Shown here: in pieces, positions 27,746 through 30,251 of the stretch
How the letters are laid out: each line of letters begins with the position of its first letter
Position numbering within the stretch: position 1 is the first letter of the stretch
DNA from: Syntrophomonas sp. DTU019
Lineage (GTDB): Bacteria > Bacillota > Syntrophomonadia > Syntrophomonadales > Syntrophomonadaceae
NCBI GenBank assembly: GCA_913757435.1
Contig: CAJYDM010000001.1
Coordinates: forward strand, 806,001 to 870,000
Direction of reading: 5' to 3'
Length of the DNA stretch: 64,000 bases
Program-made: the position numbers and the translations under genes
The notes under the pieces: model-generated
Database searches by the model: none
Told to the model about the DNA's origin: nothing
The model's input: only the letters and a program-made list of their open reading frames with translations

Positions 27746-29083
27746 TCACTTCACCCGATAGGAGATCTGTGCCGCCAGGTTGCCCAATAGACGCATAGGG
27801 ATTATACGAGCCAGCCAAGCAGTCAGTGGCCCGAATTTACGGTAGAGCAGATTAAACAAAAGATACGATTTTCGTTGCGCTCTATGTTGTGGCATACGGC
27901 GTAAGATATTGCGAAATGAATAAAACTCCCTGTAAATCCACAAGTAGCCCTGATACAGTTCGGAAGCTGTCATCCCATGGGGCTGGAATACCACATGGGC
28001 GGTATTGTAATTGGACAGTTCATCGTCGGTGATACGACCGGCATCCAACATTCGTGTATATAATTCTGTGCCCGGGTAAGGGGTGAGAATATGCGAAGTC
28101 AGGGTTTCGATTTTGTTCTTGACCAGCCAGTCAAGGGTTCGGGCAAAAACATCCCCTTTATCCCCGTCCAAGCCAAAGACCATGCTGGCATTGAGCATGA
28201 TCCCCCGCCGGTGGATGTCATTAGCCAGCCTTTCATAATTTTCGAAGTGATTGTCCTTGTTTACCCCCTGCAGAGAAGAATTATTAATGGACTCAAAGCC
28301 GATAAAAAGGCTTTGACAGCCAGCCTCGGCCATCAGATCCAGCAAGTCAGGATGGTCAGCTATTTTGGTTGTCACTGCGGCACTCCATTTCAGATTCATA
28401 CCTCGCAATTCATGAAGGAGTTTTCGGGTGTAAGACGGTACGCCGATAAAATTATCATCAACAAACAGCACATGCCGGGTGTCTAGAGCAGCGATATCGC
28501 TTAATACAGCCTCGATCGGACGGCGAACATAAATACGATTTTGACAACTATTGTAGCAAAAATCACAGCGGTTGGGACAGCCGCGACTGGTGAGGACAAC
28601 ATTGCTGTAAAGATAGCGGTCTTTATCGATCCGCTGGTAGGCCGGGGAAACGATCTCATCCCCACGGAAATCTTGCATATCATGGTAAACCTGCTGCAGT
28701 TTGCCATGTTCCGCGTCTTTGATCAACCGCGCCCATACCCGCTCGGCAGGGCCAATACAAATAGCATCGAAATATCTGCTGCAATTCTGGGGACTGCAGG
28801 TGACGTGGATACCGCCTGCCACAACCGGAATACCCGACCGACGGAAGGTAGCCGCGATCTCCACAGCCCTGGGCAGGACATCCAAAGTGATGGTAATGCC
28901 CACCATCTTCGCATCCCTATGATCACCTATTTCCTCCAGATTTTCATTGATAATGATGACTTCATGGCCCGCAGGGGTGAGACTCACCAAAGTGAACAGT
29001 GCCAGGGAGGGAGACATCCGGGTTTTAAGGTCGGTATCCATGGGCCGCTTATTCATTTTTGGCTGAATCAGTATGATTTTCAT
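27746..29083 (-). CDS. B12-binding radical SAM protein
   Basis: A 445-residue protein. The N-terminal 130 residues are a cobalamin-binding Rossmann-like domain (VIIINENLEEIG, MVGITITLDVLPRAVEIA, GIPVVAGGIHVTCSPQ), though no DxHxxG histidine is present. The radical SAM core begins with SRGCPNRCDFCYN (CxxxCxxC, about residue 165) and continues with HVLFVDDNFIG and GFESINNSSLQGVNK. It resembles BchE-like enzymes that methylate or rearrange lipids and cofactors; the substrate is unknown. It is the last gene of a three-gene reverse-strand operon and overlaps the membrane-protein gene by ATGA. Confidence 0.88.
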   Translation of the reverse strand: MKIILIQPKMNKRPMDTDLKTRMSPSLALFTLVSLTPAGHEVIIINENLEEIGDHRDAKMVGITITLDVLPRAVEIAATFRRSGIPVVAGGIHVTCSPQNCSRYFDAICIGPAERVWARLIKDAEHGKLQQVYHDMQDFRGDEIVSPAYQRIDKDRYLYSNVVLTSRGCPNRCDFCYNSCQNRIYVRRPIEAVLSDIAALDTRHVLFVDDNFIGVPSYTRKLLHELRGMNLKWSAAVTTKIADHPDLLDLMAEAGCQSLFIGFESINNSSLQGVNKDNHFENYERLANDIHRRGIMLNASMVFGLDGDKGDVFARTLDWLVKNKIETLTSHILTPYPGTELYTRMLDAGRITDDELSNYNTAHVVFQPHGMTASELYQGYLWIYREFYSFRNILRRMPQHRAQRKSYLLFNLLYRKFGPLTAWLARIIPMRLLGNLAAQISYRVK

Positions 29084-29550
29084 ATCCTATCCCAACGACA
29101 AACCAGTACATAACCCAGGTCCGCTAGCACCACCGTTGTCCAGTGGATCACGATGAATAGGGTGAATTTTTCGATAATACCATTCGCATCGCTCAATATC
29201 ATAAGGTATAATACGGCAATCGCAGCCAGGGTGAGTATGGTGGCGATTGCCAGGCATTGGATAAGGACGTCCGCATGATACTCATCATAGGGATGTCTGC
29301 GCAACAGCAGCATCATTACAACTAATATCGATATAGCGATGAGACCATAGGCGATGTAAGCATGAGAACCGGAAGCCAGAAAACCGCTCCAGGCGGTCCA
29401 AAAGTACTGGTCAGCCGCTGCCCGGTTGTAATACAACAGACTATTGAACTCTATATGGCCGGAAGTAAAAATAAATATAAACCCATAAAAGGCTGTAAAA
29501 ATGCTAAGCCCCAAGGCGTTTACGACCGGGTTCTTAAGTAAATGCTTCAT
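29080..29550 (-). CDS. Four-helix membrane protein of the Xre cassette
   Basis: A 156-residue protein with four predicted membrane segments (near residues 8-30, 60-82, 95-117 and 128-150). No catalytic motif is visible. Its start overlaps the stop of the Xre gene by ATGA, and its stop overlaps the start of the radical SAM gene the same way. Small Xre regulators paired with a multi-helix membrane protein are widespread in Firmicutes, usually with unknown function. Confidence 0.75.
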   Translation of the reverse strand: MKHLLKNPVVNALGLSIFTAFYGFIFIFTSGHIEFNSLLYYNRAAADQYFWTAWSGFLASGSHAYIAYGLIAISILVVMMLLLRRHPYDEYHADVLIQCLAIATILTLAAIAVLYLMILSDANGIIEKFTLFIVIHWTTVVLADLGYVLVCRWDRI

Positions 29551-29753
29551 TTCCTATCCTCCTCCTTGAATAGAAATAGATCTTCAATGGATACCCCGAA
29601 ATACTGAGCCAAATCGTAAGCCAGCCAGATGGAAGGATCGAACTTGCCCACTTCTATGGCATTGATGGCTTGGCGAGAAACGCCGACTCTTTCTCCCAGT
29701 TCTTTTTGGGTCAGCCCCTGCCCTTCCCGAAGCCGCTTAACCAGGTTTTGCAC
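29547..29753 (-). CDS. Xre-family transcription regulator
   Basis: A 68-residue protein that is nearly all helix-turn-helix: LTQKELGERVGVSRQAINAIEVGKF (residues about 14-38), followed by the conserved DPSIWLAYDLAQYFGVSIEDLF. It resembles short Cro/CI repressors. GTG at 29753-29751 follows GGGAGG. Two similar 16-base palindromes upstream (29774-29789 and 29818-29833) flank the likely promoter and are good candidates for its operators. Confidence 0.92.
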   Translation of the reverse strand: MQNLVKRLREGQGLTQKELGERVGVSRQAINAIEVGKFDPSIWLAYDLAQYFGVSIEDLFLFKEEDRK

Positions 29754-29773
29754 GTTATGGCCTCCCTTTTGGT

Positions 29774-29789
29774 GTAAGGTTTACCTTAC
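29774..29789 (-). promoter_or_regulatory. Candidate Xre operator O1
   Basis: GTAAGGTTTACCTTAC, a palindrome with seven-bp arms around TT. It lies 21 bases before the Xre start and just downstream of the proposed -10 box, covering the expected transcription start. Confidence 0.6.
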
Positions 29790-29793
29790 GCCA

Positions 29794-29822
29794 AGCTTAA
29801 CAAGATAGCCCCGCGGTGTCAA
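29794..29822 (-). promoter_or_regulatory. Candidate sigma-A promoter of the Xre operon
   Basis: On the reverse strand a perfect TTGACA (29822-29817) is followed after 17 bases by TAAGCT (29799-29794), a weak -10 match. O1 lies just downstream and O2 overlaps the -35 box. Confidence 0.5.
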
Positions 29823-29833
29823 GTAAACCTGAC
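29818..29833 (-). promoter_or_regulatory. Candidate Xre operator O2
   Basis: On the forward strand this reads GTCAAGTAAACCTGAC. It matches the reverse complement of O1 at 13 of 16 positions and overlaps the -35 box. Centres of O1 and O2 are 44 bases apart, about four helical turns. Confidence 0.5.
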
Positions 29834-30251
29834 ACGATTCCATATCTTCCTGCCTATAAGCACGTTCAACATGAAGGGAGATGCTTTTCTCCTGCAAAGC
29901 TTGTTTAAGCAAATAGCTCGCTTTGGAATAAAGCCTGCAAAATAGCAGACTATAATCGACAATTGCATCAACCTGGTATTCATCAGCCATACGAAGAATA
30001 TCATTGATACGACCCTGCTTATCGAAAAAACCGGCGCAGTTAGTTTGCATATAAGGGCGCGCCAAGGCCAGGACCTGATTTTTAAAGATCGGTTCCGCTT
30101 TCATCAAACACTTTTTCATAATAGTGGGAAACCGCTACAAGACTCTTCAAATAGCTCTCCTTTGGGTAGTTCTAGGCCTGGTTATGCTATAAAACCGCAT
30201 AAACGGCAACAATAGATTTATCCCACTGTGAACATTTTAGGGAATGGTGAT

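Follow-up and report, generated by a model that had tools for sequence, protein, structure and literature searches.

In the 64,000-nucleotide stretch of Syntrophomonas sp. DTU019 DNA analysed here (the window), the gene of a small Xre regulator is preceded by two similar 16-bp palindromes, O1 and O2, which are tied to the elements of its promoter and are conserved upstream of its relatives. Judging from this arrangement, Xre in all likelihood represses its own operon through dimers placed on O1 and O2, with occupancy of the sites blocking transcription and with the membrane protein encoded by the next gene modulating the repression.

Operator pair and promoter of xre

The initial annotation had proposed two 16-base operators at the xre promoter, and both were recovered (Table 1). 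The computed centres at 29781.5 and 29825.5 reproduce the claimed separation of 44 bp. The reported match at 13 of 16 positions holds for the plus strand of O1 against the minus strand of O2; a same-strand comparison gives 11/16. Both are imperfect palindromes, with pairing at 7/8 positions in O1 and 6/8 in O2. A search of the 64-kb window for palindromes of at least 6/8 pairs, alike at 13/16 positions or more and 30–60 bp apart, revealed exactly one such pair, namely O1/O2. At up to three mismatches, O1 was matched three times in the window against 0.26 expected, one of the three being the other strand of O1 itself. The O2 half-site that bears the -35 hexamer diverges from the O1 half-site, so that O2 may be the weaker site.

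Table 1. Features of the xre operon and its promoter (positions within the window).
Feature	Position	Strand	Basis or remark
Operator O1, GTAAGGTTTACCTTAC	29774-29789	.	Sequence, conserved in relatives; overlaps inferred transcription start
Operator O2	29818-29833	.	Sequence, conserved in relatives; one half-site overlaps -35
-35 hexamer TTGACA	29817-29822	-	Sequence; TTGACA in 70/77 scored pairs (window included)
Extended -10 TGT	29800-29802	-	Sequence; directly before probable -10
Probable -10 TAAGCT (weak, 3/6)	29794-29799	-	17-bp spacer, register in relatives
Probable ribosome-binding site GGGAGG	29761-29766	-	Read from sequence
xre, 68-residue HTH_3 regulator, GTG start	29547-29753	-	HTH_3 60 bits, cut-off 23
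156-residue membrane protein, conserved YDEY motif	29080-29550	-	ATG overlaps xre stop by 4 bases
B12-binding radical-SAM protein	27746-29083	-	4-base overlap with membrane protein gene

On the minus strand 5' of xre, GTCAGGTTTACTTGACA is followed by a 17-bp spacer, the -10 TAAGCT, GTAAGGTAAACCTTAC, the ribosome-binding site GGGAGG and the GTG start. The overlap of O2 with a perfect -35 was borne out, five of the six bases of TTGACA being shared with O2. A promoter consensus scan of the window scored none at O1/O2, because the -10 is weak; the hexamer was assigned because relatives keep the same register, the -35/-10 spacer being 17 in 64 of the 77 scored pairs (consensus-scored loci, window included). 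The start point would then lie about 7 nt past the -10, inside O1. The earlier placement of O1 over the likely start agrees with this position, which derives from the register of the -10, the consensus scan having scored no promoter there.

An open reading frame of 112 residues on the minus strand (29781–30119) corresponds to the C-terminal part only of the 2-hydroxyglutaryl-CoA dehydratase D-component (HGD-D 249–330 of 342) and looks like a gene remnant. It passes through O2 and terminates inside O1, its tail crossing the xre promoter.

Xre belongs to the XRE/HTH_3 family, with HTH_3 scoring above the curated cut-off over residues 5–59 of 68. The downstream membrane protein has four hydrophobic stretches, and its AlphaFold model (mean pLDDT 91.4) is all helical; W51, D89, E90 and W137 are among the residues invariant in 22 aligned relatives. 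The protein gave no match in Pfam or NCBIfam, and its model none among PDB folds at E ≤ 0.001. The radical-SAM gene is the probable third gene of the operon.

Conservation of the operator pair

As the orthologue set, the best 80 of 379 relatives from one scan of genome contigs were used. Probes derived from the window, i.e., its own O1 and O2 16-mers with up to four mismatches within 150 bp upstream, are independent of the orthologue consensus; they found two separate sites in 74 of the 80 orthologue loci (best 80 of 379; the loci are partly non-independent, L080 and L081 being equal in upstream sequence) and in 0 of 4000 random 150-bp control windows from the same loci. The palindrome, which the initial annotation had expected before homologous xre genes, is present there; retention of a palindrome at the own promoter of the orthologues (best 80 of 379) is what characterises an XRE autoregulator.

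Scoring with a consensus drawn from those same loci gave the pair in 77 of 81 loci (window plus best 80 of 379). Among the four unscored loci, L101 and L106 have the pair further upstream, L086 has O1 alone and the deformylase-linked L078 has neither site, and consensus and inspection together put the pair in 79/81 loci (window included; best 80 of 379). Comparing the 18 loci spaced at 44 bp pairwise gave an identity of 0.84 for O2 and 0.83 for O1, but of 0.29 for the 30-bp flank and likewise for the scored 12 bp of the spacer, which marks a footprint and not general relatedness.

A pair-only pattern, likewise derived from the orthologue loci and so strict that it misses the pair of the window, yielded eight matches in 8 of 398 Bacillota genomes, at least three of which (L133, L137 and L138) are the orthologue loci L036, L034 and L103; the reversed pattern yielded none. 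All eight matches end 14–30 bp 5' of an xre start and go with the recognition helix SRQAINAIE. No match to the strict pair pattern was obtained in viral contigs.

When pairs were scored without a motif against 10 shuffles per locus, the score exceeded 99% of the null in 69/81, 23/29 and 22/29 loci of three sets. Loci scoring above every null value numbered 46, 21 and 6 in these sets, respectively; three members of the third set (L140, L142 and L143) repeat loci of the second. One locus in 30 was dropped from the third set (L165, no helix motif found) and one in 30 from the second (short upstream sequence).

A regulon beyond the own operon was considered and rejected: genome-wide, at up to three mismatches, the O1 pattern was no commoner (21 matches, the own sites among them) than its reversed control (23 matches), in a search that weaker operators would escape. 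Separately, the 16-mer GTGAGGTTTACCTGGC was observed five times in genome G000 (C1:736931, C3:334920, C4:166471, C4:209074 and C8:28951) and perhaps belongs to a repeated element.

Partner genes and the paralogous circuit

A partner was called when a homologue lay within 2.5 kb and in the same orientation. A membrane protein partner was present in 52 of 80 orthologue loci (best 80 of 379), and 17 of these 52 also have a radical-SAM homologue downstream. Peptide deformylase replaces the membrane partner in 25/80 loci (best 80 of 379; L070, L074, L078, L080-L083, L085, L089, L091-L094, L097-L102, L104, L108 and L110-L113), and 3/80 have neither. Xre length follows the partner, with 61–70 residues in membrane-linked loci (68 residues in 45 of the 52) and 77–87 residues in all but one of the 25 loci with deformylase. 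A literature search for Xre together with deformylase gave nothing on point, as judged by title. A third type of partner was observed in L059 and L095, where xre is followed by the gene of a protein of 109 residues that has two or three hydrophobic stretches.

The same genome encodes a paralogue of xre that is 54% identical. This second circuit (L002; G000 C1:680572-683772) comprises the paralogous xre, a membrane protein with the NPYDER motif and an operator pair that differs from O1/O2; its operator is GTAAAGCTAGCTTTAC and its helix SRQTIISLE, in the same 44-bp layout. The operator pair is present in 26 of 30 loci of the paralogue set, the remainder being L003, L004 and L026, which have other helices, and L011, which is cut by a contig end. 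Helix SRQAINAIE goes with GTAAGGT and SRQTIISLE with GTAAAGC, which makes these helices candidate specificity residues; the covariation is an association only, because the two groups are also paralogous branches.

The partners in the paralogue set mostly belong to a second membrane family with an NPYDER or similar motif. Homology between the two partner families was rejected: profile comparison gave a probability of 4.8%, i.e., no link, and neither model had a PDB fold match at E ≤ 0.001 (paralogue partner model, pLDDT 81, pTM 0.54). Against DUF2178 (PF09946), the paralogue partner of L002 scored 16.2 bits, below the Pfam cut-off of 22.8, and the membrane partner of the window had no match; a family search with two partner relatives likewise returned sub-cut-off matches only. 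No literature on DUF2178 together with a regulator was found.

Mode of regulation and known systems

Across the 77 scored pairs, the O1–O2 distance was 39 bp (8 pairs), 41 bp (1), 42 bp (10), 43 bp (3), 44 bp (19), 45 bp (8), 46 bp (23) or 47 bp (5), a range of about 0.76 helix turn. The -35, which was sought within and just past O2, lies at O2 offset 12 in 68/77 and at offset 7 in 9/77 pairs. Measured from where the -10 starts, O1 follows after a step of 7–12, so that its position varies by about 5 bp downstream of this hexamer. In the eight loci with 39 bp, all of them deformylase-linked, O2 is shifted by 5 bp, or half a turn, relative to the -35; the -35 of these scored loci sits centrally within O2, at offset 7. 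A conserved helical phase between the operators, as would be typical of a cooperative two-operator repressor, was not found among the 77 pairs. Variable distance combined with fixed -35 registers fits two independently blocking sites and makes conserved contact on one face of the helix less likely.

We propose that the 68-residue Xre would bind, as a dimer, to both palindromes of its own promoter, O1 and O2. Binding to O2 would cover the -35 and binding to O1 the start point, so that a dimer at either site could block RNA polymerase. Since O1 and O2 keep their places relative to the promoter elements and not relative to each other, blocking by occupancy would be enough and cooperativity unnecessary. 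The genes for Xre, the membrane protein and the radical-SAM protein would be co-transcribed and held at a low, self-limited level. As the same pair precedes xre relatives in many Firmicutes, Xre very probably shuts off its own operon. By analogy with CylR1 and CylR2, the co-translated membrane protein most likely binds Xre and thereby lifts or tunes repression.

The arrangement had been read by the initial annotation as cooperative self-repression. The self-repression part is strongly supported by conservation; the cooperative part is at odds with spacings of 39 and 41–47 bp. Dimers on O1 and O2 that touch each other or loop the intervening 44 bp are rather unlikely. At 44 bp, about 4.2 turns, the sites do lie on roughly the same face in the window promoter, and this spacing is the second commonest among the orthologues (19/77) and prevails in the paralogue set (18/23 pairs above threshold). 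Against this stand the orthologue range of 39–47 bp, which spans about 0.76 turn, the position of the 39-bp group half a turn off the 44-bp group, and the extent of HTH_3, which probably leaves little of Xre for a second interface. Cooperativity may operate at this one promoter.

Xre may also activate rather than repress at O1/O2. Reading the locus as a toxin-antitoxin unit, in which the membrane protein would be the toxin and Xre both the antitoxin and the autorepressor, would account for a small Xre with an overlapping partner gene, and NCBIfam antitoxin models do match, all below cut-off; it is nevertheless improbable, since the partner falls into no known toxin family in Pfam or NCBIfam and is an ordinary enzyme, peptide deformylase, in 25/80 loci (best 80 of 379). 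A separate regulator that binds O1/O2 and controls xre would be in keeping with the occurrence of one operator at both deformylase- and membrane-linked operons. This is very improbable, as operator and recognition helix change together between the orthologue and paralogue sets and as every one of the eight pair-only matches precedes an xre gene. The palindromes could also be chance products of promoter composition and of the end of the open reading frame at 29781–30119, the dehydratase fragment whose 3' end crosses O2 and stops in O1; retention of the pair in 79/81 loci (best 80 of 379 plus window) without retention of the flanks, together with its absence from all 4000 control windows, makes the probability of this negligible. 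Autorepression by Xre itself is therefore the reading we retain.

Among regulators of known structure, the best sequence match of Xre is PDB 9k3w (E 2.9e-15), a 65-residue 'transcriptional regulator, PbsX family', for which no paper naming the entry was found. CylR2 of Enterococcus faecalis (PDB 1utx), with 66 residues, is related to Xre as well, matching query residues 3–64 in phmmer (E 3e-10). According to parts of PMC3709268, CylR2 binds at a promoter, and its partner CylR1, suspected to be a membrane protein and predicted to have three helices, is needed for induction in a way that is not understood. The present locus is CylR1/CylR2-like in layout, with an adjacent small membrane protein, a 4-base gene overlap and an all-helical model. 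It differs in that CylR2 controls a divergent toxin operon, whereas no other target of the O1 pattern was found in the genome; no linked lantibiotic or toxin operon of the CylR1/CylR2 type was present among the five genes scanned around the site (xre, membrane protein, B12 radical-SAM protein, dehydratase fragment and ctsR).

A 2025 study groups the palindromes found 5' of XRE genes into 223 motif clusters and reports gel shifts that showed binding to nine of ten tested palindromes (PMC12565409). These palindromes are of the same kind as O1 and O2 in lying upstream of the own gene and in being bound by a helix-turn-helix dimer; unlike at the window promoter, paired sites locked to the -35 are not described in the parts of the main text covered. 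The operator of the window may already be among the 223 clusters (Table S1 of that study). Among the papers searched, none contains the operator sequence in any of several spellings.

An autorepressed small XRE regulator with a coupled partner is a familiar kind of system, and the arrangement seen here is sound and widespread. As a tentative and somewhat doubtful extension, the locus might represent one branch of a large class of partner-swapping one-component circuits in Bacillota, in which an Xre of 65–90 residues acts at a promoter in which, usually, one operator surrounds the -35 and the other lies on the start. The interchangeable second gene, for a four-helix YDEY membrane protein, a DER-motif membrane protein or a peptide deformylase, would then be the sensor that holds or releases the repressor, so that the membrane state or N-formyl-peptide processing would set the level of the operon without phosphorylation.

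The findings provide a defined operator and promoter layout for widespread small Firmicute regulators whose operators were not found in the literature searched, and reveal one and the same switch in combination with an uncharacterised membrane protein at some loci and with peptide deformylase at others. Sensing by such Xre–partner pairs is now directly testable.
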